Shown here in pieces: positions 8,095 through 12,605 of a DNA stretch of 37,305 nucleotides. The stretch's first letter is position 1; each line of letters starts with the position of its first letter. Source of the stretch: Acidimicrobiaceae bacterium (GTDB taxonomy: Bacteria; Actinomycetota; Acidimicrobiia; Acidimicrobiales; RAAP-2); the NCBI GenBank assembly GCA_003169675.1, contig PNAT01000185.1, positions 1 to 37,305 of the forward strand, written 5' to 3'. The translations under genes were made by a program, and so were the position numbers. The notes below the pieces were generated by a model. That model saw only the letters and a program-made list of their open reading frames with translations. It had not been told where the DNA came from and did not search any database.

Positions 8095-8865
8095 CTAGGC
8101 CCACGAGCGTTTCGTGTCGGAAAACCGAAGCCTCCACAAGGCGATCAGGGTGAATCCTGCTGCGAAGGCCGTGAGCACTCCGGCCGGAAGTAGGGCGGCC
8201 CTCAACCGGTCACCGTCGAGAATCAGAGAGTTGAAGCCCCGCATCGCCCAGTACTGGGGCGTTGCCGGAGCAATACGGTGCACCCAGCCCGGAAGCACCG
8301 CCAACGGCATCAGCGCCCCGCCGAGGCCGGCCAAGGCGACAGATCCAACGTTCCCAAAAGCGTTGACCTGACCCATGGTCTTGAAGACGGCGATGGTTGC
8401 CAAGCCAAGCGTGCCCACGCACAGCACAAGGGAGGCTGCCACCAGAGCCACACCGACCGTGGATCCTCGGACGTGAAGACCGAGCCCCACACCGACCAGA
8501 AAGACGACCCCAAGCTGAATTACCCCGAGTATGCACATGGGGAGCACTTTGCCGATCAAGATCTCGGAGGAGGTAGCCGAGCTGGCCCGGAGTCGGTCCC
8601 ATGTGGCCCAACCATGTTCGCGGAAGAACGAAAATCCGATGAACGCCGGGATGAAGAAAATGAAGGTCACGGCCTCAGCTGGCACGGCGAAGTCAGCACC
8701 CGACACACCGTGGTAGCCCTGAACCTGAAGGATGGCCCCGATCCCGTCACGCAAGATGTACGTGACGAGAATGGGTACAGCCAGGACGAAAATCAGCGGT
8801 GAAGGATCCCGGCGGAGCACCCGCACCTCATTTCGGGTGATGGCAACGCTACGACGGACCGACAC
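8095..8865 (-). CDS. ABC-2 type transporter permease
   Basis: 256 residues with six predicted membrane segments and the ABC-2 layout: a cytoplasmic N-terminus (RNEVRVLRRDP), a first segment LIFVLAVPILVTYIL, and a large hydrophobic C-terminal half ending PLAVLPGWVHRIAPATPQYWAMRG, the typical closing loop. I chose GTG at 8865: GAGGAGG lies 6 nt upstream within the end of the ATPase gene, giving a 17-nt overlap. Upstream ATG at 8889 has no site. With the ATPase it forms an exporter for an unknown hydrophobic compound, controlled by the TetR gene at the head of the operon. Confidence 0.88.
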   Translation of the reverse strand: MSVRRSVAITRNEVRVLRRDPSPLIFVLAVPILVTYILRDGIGAILQVQGYHGVSGADFAVPAEAVTFIFFIPAFIGFSFFREHGWATWDRLRASSATSSEILIGKVLPMCILGVIQLGVVFLVGVGLGLHVRGSTVGVALVAASLVLCVGTLGLATIAVFKTMGQVNAFGNVGSVALAGLGGALMPLAVLPGWVHRIAPATPQYWAMRGFNSLILDGDRLRAALLPAGVLTAFAAGFTLIALWRLRFSDTKRSWA

Positions 8866-9823
8866 GCTGATCCTCCTCGTCTGGGTCATACCGGCGCCCG
8901 GTGAGGGCCAGAAACACGCTTTCGAGGCTGGGGTGGATGACGTCCAGGCTGCGAAGTCGTTGCGCGTCTCCACCAAGCACCTCGAAAACCCGGGCGGCCG
9001 CCAGTGCCAGGTCCGGGGTGACGATGCGGATCAACTCACCCTGGCGCGTGATGGACAATCCTTCGAGCGACAGGTCAGGGACCGGCCCGTCGAATCGGAG
9101 CTCGAGCGCGGCCAGGCCATGGCGGGCCACCAGCTCTTGAACTGGACCCTGGGCGATGACATTCCCGTGGTCGAGAAGGACCACAAAGGCATTCAGGGAT
9201 TCGATCTCCGGCAGGTAGTGCGTGGAGTACACCACCGCGGTTCCCTCTCCCGCGAGCTGTGTGACCACTTCGAGGAGCGCAGTACGGGTGAGGATGTCAG
9301 CGCCCACCGTGGGCTCGTCCAGCAGGAGGAGTCGTGGCCGCCCCATGAGGGCGACGGCCATGTGGACCCGACGCTTCTCGCCTCCAGAGAGTTGTTGGCA
9401 GGGTCGGGAACTCAGATCTTCCAGCAGCAGGGATGCCGACACATCGTCGATTCGCTGACGGAGCGTGGCCCCACGAATCCCGGCCAACTCGCCAAAGAAG
9501 GTCAAGTTCTCCCGTACCGTCAGGACCTCGTAGACGCCCGTCGTCTGGGGCGCCAATCCGATGAGTGGCCGTACGCTGTGGGGGTGCCGCAGGGCGTCGA
9601 CGCCGCCCACCAGCACCGTTCCCGCATCGGGCTTCACGAGGCCCGCCACGATGGAGGCGAACGTCGTCTTGCCCGCGCCATTGGGGCCGAGCAGAGCCAC
9701 CACTTGTCCCGGTCGTGCCTCCACGTCGATGCCGTTCAAGGCGATCTTGTCGCCATAGGACTTCTCGAGACCGGAGACGGCCAGGATCGGCTCGCCGGCC
9801 TGGCCAACGTGGTCGAACGACAT
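8849..9823 (-). CDS. ABC transporter ATP-binding protein
   Basis: 324 residues. Walker A is GPNGAGKTT at 46-54, signature LSGGEKRR at 145-152, Walker B RLLLLDEPT at 164-172, and the switch His is in STHYLPE. The extra C-terminal domain of about 100 residues is typical of DrrA/CcmA-type drug and lipid exporter ATPases. It powers the permease encoded by the overlapping downstream gene. The tetR gene ends 14 nt upstream, so all three belong to one transcript starting near 10700. Confidence 0.93.
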   Translation of the reverse strand: MSFDHVGQAGEPILAVSGLEKSYGDKIALNGIDVEARPGQVVALLGPNGAGKTTFASIVAGLVKPDAGTVLVGGVDALRHPHSVRPLIGLAPQTTGVYEVLTVRENLTFFGELAGIRGATLRQRIDDVSASLLLEDLSSRPCQQLSGGEKRRVHMAVALMGRPRLLLLDEPTVGADILTRTALLEVVTQLAGEGTAVVYSTHYLPEIESLNAFVVLLDHGNVIAQGPVQELVARHGLAALELRFDGPVPDLSLEGLSITRQGELIRIVTPDLALAAARVFEVLGGDAQRLRSLDVIHPSLESVFLALTGRRYDPDEEDQRVGPS

Positions 9824-9837
9824 GGCGTCGGTCCCGA

Positions 9838-10524
9838 TCAGCCCGGCGGTGGCGAGGTCGTCTGTGACGGCGCAGGCGTTGCCGCGTCTTGCGCTATCGC
9901 CACCAGACCTCTCACAAAGATCGTCAACATCTTCACGTAGAGGTCTTCAGAGGAGACGTCCGGATCGTAAATCTGCTGGAGCGCAACTCCGTCTGACATG
10001 GCGAAGAACGCCGTCACCATCTCCCCTACCGGGAGCGCCGACTCGAGGTCCCAGTCCAGCCCGGGACTCATGCGCACCATGGTCTCGGCGACCGCCGCCT
10101 TGAGTTTGCGGTGCCCGGCGCGCATGGGCTCGTTCCCCGTCGGGAATCTGGTCGCATGCAGCGTGTACTCCAGCATCAGTAGGAACAGGTCGGGGTCACT
10201 CAACGCCATGAACCGCTGGCCGGCCCATGTCGCCTGTTCGGATGCTTCGGCCGACCAGTCGACCCGGTCGAGGATCTCCAGCAACTGCCGGTCGTGGTAC
10301 CGATCTATCACCGCGGCGAAGAGCGCGTCCTTGGAGTCGAAGTTCGAGTACACGGCGCCCTTGGTCAGCCCCGCCTCCCACGCCACATCGTCGACGCTCG
10401 CCGCCACGTACCCCTGGCGGGCGAAGACCTTGGTGGCCGCCTCCAGGAGTGCCTCGCGTGTCGCCGCCTTCTTCTCCTCCCGGCGGGGCTTCGGCGGAGG
10501 TCCGGCCTTGGCCGGGGGCGTCAT
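9838..10524 (-). CDS. TetR/AcrR-family transcriptional regulator
   Basis: 228 residues. An N-terminal Lys/Arg-rich tail is followed by the TetR helix-turn-helix at about 42-66 (SVDDVAWEAGLTKGAVYSNFDSKDALF region). The C-terminal ligand domain is divergent, as usual. It very probably represses its own operon, small frame-tetR-ATPase-permease, by binding the three ATAC-N6-GTAT operators just upstream, with the exported compound as inducer. Its ATG overlaps the stop of a 58-codon upstream frame in an ATGA junction (10521-10524), so it may be translated by coupling; no strong ribosome site of its own is visible. Confidence 0.92.
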   Translation of the reverse strand: MTPPAKAGPPPKPRREEKKAATREALLEAATKVFARQGYVAASVDDVAWEAGLTKGAVYSNFDSKDALFAAVIDRYHDRQLLEILDRVDWSAEASEQATWAGQRFMALSDPDLFLLMLEYTLHATRFPTGNEPMRAGHRKLKAAVAETMVRMSPGLDWDLESALPVGEMVTAFFAMSDGVALQQIYDPDVSSEDLYVKMLTIFVRGLVAIAQDAATPAPSQTTSPPPG

Positions 10525-10697
10525 GCGGCGGAAGCGGAATCCGCCTCCGGAGTCCCGGAGGACGGGACCGTCGCCACCGACGCGGCGTGCAACTCCCTGA
10601 CGAGGCTCTCAAAGGCCAACTCCCGGGCGATCCATTCCTTGGGGTCGTCGGTTGGCTCTTCGACTGGCACAGTGAATAATACTTGTCGGTATCCCAT
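10521..10697 (-). CDS. 58-codon frame overlapping the tetR start (ATGA)
   Basis: An ATG at 10697 opens a 58-residue frame beginning MGYRQVLFTVPVEEPTDDPK, followed by EWIARELAFESLVRELHAA, a plausible amphipathic helix, and a loose Ser/Ala-rich end. It stops exactly in the ATGA that starts tetR. I recognise no family. It may be a small protein, or a leader peptide that feeds ribosomes to tetR. The ATG sits inside the operator array with no good ribosome site. A -10-like TATTAT (about 10676-10681 on this strand) suggests that transcription may begin so close that the GTG at codon 10 is used as a near-leaderless start, giving 49 residues. Confidence 0.5.
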   Translation of the reverse strand: MGYRQVLFTVPVEEPTDDPKEWIARELAFESLVRELHAASVATVPSSGTPEADSASAA

Positions 10698-10726
10698 ACC
10701 TCAGAGTATCACATACTGACTGGTAT
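10679..10726. promoter_or_regulatory. three tandem TetR-type operators, 17-bp period
   Basis: Three 14-bp sites of form ATAC-N6-GTAT: 10679-10692 (ATACTTGTCGGTAT), 10696-10709 (ATACCTCAGAGTAT) and 10713-10726 (ATACTGACTGGTAT). Each starts exactly 17 bp after the last, with 3-bp spacers, so the spacers also make GTAT-N3-ATAC palindromes. The array lies just upstream of, and overlaps, the start of the small frame-tetR-ABC operon, as expected of an autoregulatory TetR operator, and it is AT-richer than its surroundings. Confidence 0.8.
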
Positions 10727-10737
10727 CTGTCAAGCCT

Positions 10738-11143
10738 TTACGGTGTTGATGTCCGTTCGATGGCGGGCCATTCGAGATGGCCGGGGGAGCCCACGGTAGA
10801 GACCGGAACAGCAAGCGGGGCGAAACCCGAGGAGCGCAGCAGGCTGATCAGTGGCGGCGGTTTGCCCTCCCCGGTCCCGAGGTGATCGCCATGTCGGCGA
10901 TCACCTCGGGATCACGCGACTGAGCCACCGCCGCTCGCAAGAGATCGTCCGGAACGGCAAAGTCGAACATCGGCTCAGCGGTCACGGGGGGGCCCCTCAC
11001 CTTGTTATTGGCGTCTTCGTAAGGCGGGCCGGGAGATCGATCGGGAGGATCACCTCGGCGCTGTCAGGTACCTCGACGGACTGTCCCGTGGTCCCGGAGG
11101 CCAGCCCGACCCCCACGGTGGGCTCAGTGACCGGGACCACGAT
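10738..11143 (-). pseudogene. unrecognised, probably degenerate coding remnant downstream of the kinase
   Basis: Between the kinase stop (11124) and the tetR promoter the minus strand reads like protein in pieces. One frame from about 11143 gives VEVPDSAEVILPIDLPARL and stops at 10997. A GTG at 10985, preceded by GGTGAGGGG, opens MTAEPMFDFAVPDDLLRAA... and EVIADMAITSG. Adding one G to the GGGG run near 10872 would continue it in frame as PGEGKPPPLISLLRSSGF to a TAA at 10738. That would give a small protein of about 82 residues. I do not recognise the family. It may be a broken last gene of the sugar operon, or an intact small gene with a sequencing error. Confidence 0.35.
10875..10911. terminator. 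16-bp perfect hairpin, 5-nt loop
   Basis: TCCCGAGGTGATCGCC (10875-10890), loop ATGTC, exact complement 10896-10911. It lies downstream of the minus-strand sugar operon and upstream of the tetR operon, so a transcription terminator of the U-tract-less kind common in actinobacteria is plausible. It also overlaps the possible small frame described at 10738-11143, where it would encode PEVIADMAITSG, and could instead be an operator. Confidence 0.5.
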
Positions 11144-12605
11144 CGGCCGAAGGAAGCGATTCCGTGGCGGCCAGCATCTCCACGGCAACGTGCTCGACCT
11201 GGGGCCGCAGCCGTCGGTAGATGTCGACGATCTCAGGGTCGGGCGTGATCACCGCCTCGACGGGATCGAGCTGGGCCAGCGTCAAACCCATGCCCAGGGC
11301 CCGACCAGCCAGCAGCGCGGCACCGGCCGATGCCGCCTCACCGGAACGGTGGCGGGTGGCCGGCACGCCTAGGATGGCGGTGAGCACTTCAACCCAGAGG
11401 GGCAGCCCCGTTCCGGCGCCGCCAAGTGTGACCCCCTCGGCCGTGCTGCCACCCAGACGGCCGACCGTCACCACCTCCATGCAACGCAGCACATCCCAGG
11501 CCACTGCCTCAATGACGGCACGGGACATGTCGCCGCTGTTGTGGGCGGCACCGATCCCCACGAAACCGGCCCGGGCATCGTCGCGCCACCAAGGGGCCCG
11601 GGCGCCGTCGAGCCATGGCACGGCGATGACGCCGCGAGCGCCCGGCGGGCTGTCCGCCGCGCTAGCCGCCAGTTCGCTGACCGGTCGGTCGAGCAGGCGG
11701 CCCAACCAGGCCAGAAACGAGCCGGCCGCCGAGAGGCCACCTTCGAGCAGCCACCCGACATCGGCCGCCCGGGTCACCACGGCGCCGGCCGGGGAGGGCA
11801 CCGGACGTTCGTGCACCGGCACCGAGACATTGGCTGTTGTGCCCCAGCTCACCATGGGGCAGTCCTCGGACGCGCCGGAGCCCAGTACCTCACACTGCCG
11901 GTCACCGGCACCGATGACCACCGGGATTCCGGGACGCAAACCGAGCTCGGCCCCGGGCACTGCCTTGAGTTGACCCACCACCGTGTCGGAGGGAACCACG
12001 CTGGGGAGCTTGCCCAGAGCGGGCCCGGCCAACTCGCGCACGGCGTTCCCATCAAAGTCGTACAGACCGCTGCGGGAGGCGAACGAGACGTCAGTCACCA
12101 CTTGATCGGTCATGCGCATCACCACCAGGTCACGGGGGGAAAGGATGATGTCGCACGCCGCGAGGCGTTCCGGCTCGTGCGTGGACAGCCACGCCAGCTT
12201 GGCGGCCATGGCGCCGGCATCGAGCGGGATCCCGGTACGGGCGCGGTTGATGTCCTCGCCCCCGAGGATGCCGGCCAGTGAGATCGCCTCCGCCGCGGCG
12301 CGCCGGTCGGACCACAAGATGCCCTTTCCGATGGGATCGCCGGCGGAGGTCACGGGCACGAAACTCTGGCGGGCCCCCGAGCACGCCACGACGTCAACCT
12401 GGCCAAAGGCCAGCGGGGCCTGGGCCCGCGCCTCGGCGCAAGCGATGACCACCGAGGTCCACCAGCGCAGCGGATCCTGCTCTGACCACCCCACCTGTGT
12501 GTGCGTGGTAGCCAACTCCGATCGGGTCAGCGCCACCATGCCGTCTTCACCCCACAGGCCGACCTTGGTCACCGTGGTCCCGAATTCGATGGTGAGGATC
12601 ATCAT
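11124..12605 (-). CDS. FGGY-family carbohydrate kinase
   Basis: 493 residues, full length for the FGGY family (xylulokinase, gluconokinase, glycerol kinase relatives). It shows the N-terminal phosphate loop IEFGTT (6-11), the W-S-D-R-R motif at 98-102, and the catalytic base region GAGD235RQCEVLGSG. VSWGTTANVSVP, near 252-263, is the adenosine-side loop. It phosphorylates a sugar or polyol in the cytoplasm; the substrate is not evident. Its ATG overlaps the aldolase stop in ATGA (12602-12605), so kinase and aldolase are made together, presumably for successive steps. Confidence 0.93.
   Translation of the reverse strand: MMILTIEFGTTVTKVGLWGEDGMVALTRSELATTHTQVGWSEQDPLRWWTSVVIACAEARAQAPLAFGQVDVVACSGARQSFVPVTSAGDPIGKGILWSDRRAAAEAISLAGILGGEDINRARTGIPLDAGAMAAKLAWLSTHEPERLAACDIILSPRDLVVMRMTDQVVTDVSFASRSGLYDFDGNAVRELAGPALGKLPSVVPSDTVVGQLKAVPGAELGLRPGIPVVIGAGDRQCEVLGSGASEDCPMVSWGTTANVSVPVHERPVPSPAGAVVTRAADVGWLLEGGLSAAGSFLAWLGRLLDRPVSELAASAADSPPGARGVIAVPWLDGARAPWWRDDARAGFVGIGAAHNSGDMSRAVIEAVAWDVLRCMEVVTVGRLGGSTAEGVTLGGAGTGLPLWVEVLTAILGVPATRHRSGEAASAGAALLAGRALGMGLTLAQLDPVEAVITPDPEIVDIYRRLRPQVEHVAVEMLAATESLPSADRGPGH

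Follow-up and report, generated by a model that had tools for sequence, protein, structure and literature searches.

The TetR-family repressor DarR binds c-di-AMP or cAMP. DarR of mycobacteria and rhodococci represses its own promoter and recognises the operator ATACT-N4-AGTAT, where Lys44 and Gly45 were seen in the crystal structure to read T-x-C of each half-site; given a 20-bp DNA that contains this palindrome, it binds as an overlapping dimer-of-dimers in which the two dimers are displaced from each other by 3 bp (PMC10636190). MbdR of Azoarcus also uses ATAC and GTAT half-sites; its own promoter is predicted to hold three operators and gives several retarded bands (PMC4424350). In the operators of QacR and CprB, 22-28 bp accommodate two dimers, which occupy opposite sides of a single palindrome (PMC4150764), and EthR, as cited in PMC9210681, forms a homo-octamer on a 55-bp operator.

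The stretch of DNA analysed here (the window; 37,305 nucleotides of an Acidimicrobiaceae bacterium, contig PNAT01000185.1) carries ATAC-N6-GTAT three times, each copy exact, at a period of 17 bp and with no other copy in the window (Table 1). This array, with sites starting at 10679, 10696 and 10713, had been pointed out by a sequence-only reading, and we find it to be far above chance. Shuffled windows averaged 0.04 single sites and in no case contained three; given the base composition of the window, a run of three sites spaced at 17 bp has an expectation of approximately 5e-13. A search of the whole 3.56-Mb assembly for a two-site array with up to 2 mismatches returned the array locus only, and in the assembly scan the stricter pattern SATACYNNNNRGTATS had no matches other than two of the three sites. 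A literature search with the operator strings of the array did not find a relevant paper. The adjacent TetR-family regulator very probably has its operator here. We consider it likely, with a probability of about 0.75, that the regulator controls its own operon through the array, three of its dimers coating the promoter and silencing the small ORF, tetR and ABC exporter genes. To judge from its sequence, the array is ordinary in kind, a DarR-type palindrome through which a TetR would regulate itself, but it is present in an unusually regular, conserved three-site form within a promoter.

Table 1. Positions of the array, the predicted promoter and the operon genes in the window.
Feature	Position	Strand	Basis and remarks
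Operator 1, ATACCAGTCAGTAT (tetR sense)	10713..10726	-	within -35/-10 spacer; exact match; half-sites invariant in 6 genomes
Operator 2, ATACTCTGAGGTAT	10696..10709	-	ATACT gives most of -10 hexamer; exact match; conserved in 6 genomes
Operator 3, ATACCGACAAGTAT	10679..10692	-	3' of predicted start, inside small ORF; conserved in 6 genomes
-35 hexamer TTGACA	10728..10733	-	CTTGAC at that place invariant in 6 genomes
Extended -10 GATACT	10705..10710	-	17 bp from -35; nATACT in 6/6 genomes
Small ORF, 58 aa, first operon gene	10521..10697	-	unannotated; homologues beside TetR and operator; coding signature
TetR-family repressor, 228 aa	9838..10524	-	Pfam TetR_N 2.4e-15; predicted fold mean pLDDT 89.5
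Recognition helix region T54-K55-G56-A-V-Y59-S-N-F62	10339..10365	-	T-K-G-x-x-Y pattern as in DarR
ABC transporter ATPase, DrrA-like	8849..9823	-	ABC_tran 5.5e-31
ABC-2 type permease	8095..8976	-	ABC2_membrane 3.6e-18

All genes relevant to the array lie on the minus strand, in the order small ORF, tetR, ABC ATPase and permease. A predicted sigma-70-type promoter, TTGACA-17-GATACT, passes through the array on the same strand. TTGAC directly abuts site 1, the 17-bp spacer is exactly filled by operator 1, operator 2 provides the -10 element and extends over the predicted start, and operator 3 follows just downstream; relative to a predicted +1 at 10697, the operators occupy -29 to -16, -12 to +2 and +6 to +19, respectively. 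This overlap bears out the earlier claim that the array covers the start of the operon, of which the first gene is the 58-aa ORF and not tetR. Because this ORF intervenes, 155 bp separate the array from the tetR ATG downstream of it.

The regulator has a TetR_N helix-turn-helix, an all-helical predicted fold and fold matches in the PDB, and is thus a member of the TetR family. The window ATPase scored 223 bits against the NCBIfam drrA model, below the cut-off of 312, and does not qualify as a DrrA-type exporter component. An ABC ATPase lies 3' of tetR in just one of the five other three-site loci (G025), and any guess at the ligand is therefore weak. The ABC exporter was rejected as a constant target of the regulator, since the other loci have sulfatase, Tim44-domain or unrelated genes beside tetR.

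Conservation of the array was examined in related genomes. The best TetR homologues among 198 genomes of the order, 36-41% identical over the aligned part, were found in G078, G025, G146 and G197. Independently of this, a search of 397 genomes by pattern detected three-site arrays in G078, G146, G197, G312 and the window genome; the array of G025 has one mismatch in the middle site. In the set of six genomes so obtained, the other TetRs are approximately 36-39% identical to the window TetR. With operator 1 as the anchor of the alignment, the six genomes all agreed in 23 of 24 half-site columns but in only 1 of 24 spacer columns, namely the final T of the -10 element. The flanks of the array were at background identity, unlike the invariant CTTGAC. 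Two species of one genus differed at 0/24 half-site and 12/24 spacer positions. Both half-sites and period are therefore kept in relatives, and this agrees with the proposal that the sites are operators of the neighbouring TetR; the loss of half-sites that the sequence-only reading had named as refuting it was not seen. Since distant relatives retain the sites and their spacing, the array very likely serves the repressor gene as a densely packed switch for turning itself off.

Comparison with DarR showed agreement in operator sequence and recognition-helix motif. The operator ATACT-N4-AGTAT equals ATAC-N6-GTAT of the window, and the fifth base is a pyrimidine in 35/36 half-sites of the six arrays, C being allowed besides T. 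T43-K44-G45-x-x-Y48 of DarR has its counterpart in T54-K55-G56-x-x-Y59, including the base-reading Lys-Gly pair; T-K-G-x-x-Y, with S-K following, is common to the recognition helices (PMC10636190). DarR differs in having single palindromes in place of tandem arrays (PMC10636190), and overall closeness in sequence or fold was not found: the match of the window TetR was 8.6e-7 over residues 23-123, and DarR ranked 48 by fold with a TM of 0.45-0.51, many other TetR-family structures being closer. DarR also suggests that each site could take a pair of dimers, the second shifted by 3 bp, for up to six dimers on the array, since DarR itself loads its 20-bp site in this way (PMC10636190). However, by sequence the six arrays contain no conserved secondary TXC-N6-GXA pair, a score of 4/4 in every array is reached at offsets 1, 18 and 35 alone, and a 17-bp pitch would leave little room, which makes such paired binding improbable.

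The residue preceding the recognition-helix Gly was Lys or Arg in 33/33 array-bearing TetRs compared, and Ser or Thr in 7/9 homologues without an array; two homologues with a Lys helix (G212 and G113) are also without one, which counts against the preferred explanation. The base following ATAC was a pyrimidine with a Lys helix (59/60 half-sites) and a purine with an Arg helix (66/70), and three loci outside the covariation set agree with this rule. No more than 3 changes on the tree underlie it, and when only branches with firm support are counted, 1 independent pair is left. Together with the spacings, the Lys/Arg to pyrimidine/purine rule makes operators of uncharacterised regulators predictable.

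The 17-bp period does give rise to GTAT-N3-ATAC junctions, as had been noted, and these are palindromic in sequence, so that a repressor alternating between the ATAC-N6-GTAT and GTAT-N3-ATAC registers had been envisaged. We scanned all spacings in the upstream regions of 21 homology-found TetR genes. ATAC-to-GTAT was enriched at N6 (30 pairs in 12 loci, versus 1.0 expected), and GTAT-to-ATAC occurred at N3 in 6 loci and at N5 in 7. Since N6 is constant and neighbouring sites are set apart by N3 or N5, in rare cases by N4 or N7, N6 is the within-dimer spacing and N3 or N5 the linker between dimers, and the idea of two registers is therefore unsupported. It is also opposed by the covariation of the recognition helix with a base inside N6, and by the half-site polarity at the junctions, which is reversed relative to the DarR-DNA structure (PMC10636190). 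We regard alternating registers as very improbable and reject GTAT-N3-ATAC as a true operator. The same scan disposed of an MbdR-like ATAC-N10-GTAT arrangement (0 observed, 1.1 expected); MbdR resembles the present system in its half-sites and in the three operators predicted for its promoter, but its N10 spacing is absent here (PMC4424350).

Array scans with a free gap of 0-20 were performed across 397 genomes of the order and 396 of the phylum, with reversed-pattern controls. Arrays were found at many periods, and control matches were rare. A TetR of the window TetR's family adjoined the array in 17/17 loci of period 17, 2/3 of period 18, 5/5 of period 19 and 1/1 of period 21, as against 0/16 loci at periods 14, 15, 20 and 22-32. 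For periods 17-19 in Actinomycetota the figure was 24/25 loci, and for N3 arrays in the order scan 9/9 genomes. That the array belongs to some other regulator, with TetR a mere neighbour, is hardly credible, as all period-17 arrays of the two scans adjoin one TetR family and the helix residue covaries with the operator base. A large actinobacterial TetR family is thus tied, from sequence alone, to an operator with a defined half-site, dimer register, spacings of 17-21 bp and the Lys/Arg rule.

Outside Actinomycetota, no more than 2 matches were obtained in 239 genomes of a proteobacterial sample, where the control pattern matched once; of the two, L125 lies next to a TetR of the same family. 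A contig scan of genomes with the window TetR gave one distant Mesorhizobium locus only, and a plasmid search only weak matches. Other arrangements of these half-sites were also seen. Abutting ATAC-N6-GTAT pairs of period 14 with a GTATATAC junction occur in several genomes (L043, L044, L045 and L072, around 1501), with no TetR of the window family adjoining, and paired ATACG-N4-CGTAT-like sites at periods 22-30 (L042, L047, L048, L088 and L092) lie beside a different, distant TetR group.

The sequence-only reading had further proposed cooperative multimer binding, and to this the comparison lends indirect support: within a clade the spacer sequence drifts but the period does not. The alternative is that the same repressor uses the same sites as three independently bound dimers, extra sites merely raising occupancy, and that their spacing reflects inheritance or the geometry of the promoter. 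Some loci do carry just one or two sites, operator 1 exactly fills the promoter spacer, and a fixed spacing can also arise from common descent or, for sites 1 and 2, from that 17-bp spacer. Yet the spacing between sites 2 and 3, which is free of promoter constraint, is also 17 in 6/6 genomes. In a tree of 43 TetRs the period clustered by clade, with 17 recurring in several separate clades and others using 19, and TetR-linked arrays were confined to periods 17-21, apart from one of 34 with a degenerate middle site. Independent binding thus appears unlikely, although it retains some weight. The tight range is what edge-to-edge packing would give, and the fixed spacing favours contacting, possibly cooperative dimers, as support and not as proof. 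Cooperative packing of TetR dimers becomes testable here by moving a site by a few bases. EthR (as cited in PMC9210681) offers a likeness, in that several TetR-family dimers cooperatively fill approximately 50 bp of promoter DNA, but its operator sequence and repeat layout are unrelated to the window array. QacR and CprB likewise place more than one dimer cooperatively on one operator region, on one palindrome in place of the separate palindromes at a 17-bp pitch (PMC4150764).

For the three-dimer autoregulatory operator that we prefer, we infer the following course of binding, cooperation, repression and release. One dimer would bind each ATAC-N6-GTAT, and in each half-site T-A-C would be contacted by K55-G56 of the recognition helix, the counterpart of K44-G45 in DarR. 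Three dimers would lie edge to edge at the 17-bp pitch, each rotated by approximately 223 degrees from the previous one, and would together extend over the promoter between the -35 edge and approximately +19. RNA polymerase would be kept from the -10 element and the start site, and the small ORF, tetR and ABC exporter genes would be silenced until a ligand, probably an exporter substrate, released the dimers.

The ATG of the small ORF lies 7 nt after the -10 element, and its mRNA is therefore probably leaderless; its stop codon overlaps the tetR ATG. An ORF of this kind lies between array and tetR in 5/6 three-site loci (the window, G078, G146, G197 and G312), with its start codon inside the array in the window and G146, and homologues lie opposite tetR in several period-19 loci. 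The homologues share W-[LIV]-x5-[FW]-E-x2-L. Between G197 and G312, a same-genus pair, 13 synonymous and 8 nonsynonymous codon changes were counted, compared with 3/19 and 0/22 in the shifted frames. No credible family match was found in Pfam or NCBIfam, and a conserved microprotein missed by annotation libraries is now exposed. Profile search added members at L103 and L106, again beside ATAC-N6-GTAT and a TetR of the window family, and others with no TetR nearby. It is a rather doubtful suggestion that the product is an undescribed helical microprotein of about 50 aa acting with the window TetR family in a role such as that of anti-repressor or co-repressor, and its effect on the repressor is a guess; if true, array and peptide would form a single switch, with a leaderless mRNA whose start codon lies in the array.

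Members of this microprotein family (approximately 40-60 aa, one likely amphipathic helix; the window ORF, L102, L104, L105 and L107) include some upstream of other genes with no nearby TetR, and in G146 (L063/L100) one lies just before a cytochrome P450 gene. An intein-bearing DnaB helicase gene (L051:4402-7107, minus strand) adjoins tetR of G197. In the window, a perfect 16-bp inverted repeat with a 5-nt loop and without a clear T run (10875-10911) lies downstream of an FGGY kinase gene (11124-12605, minus strand), and is perhaps the terminator of the kinase operon.
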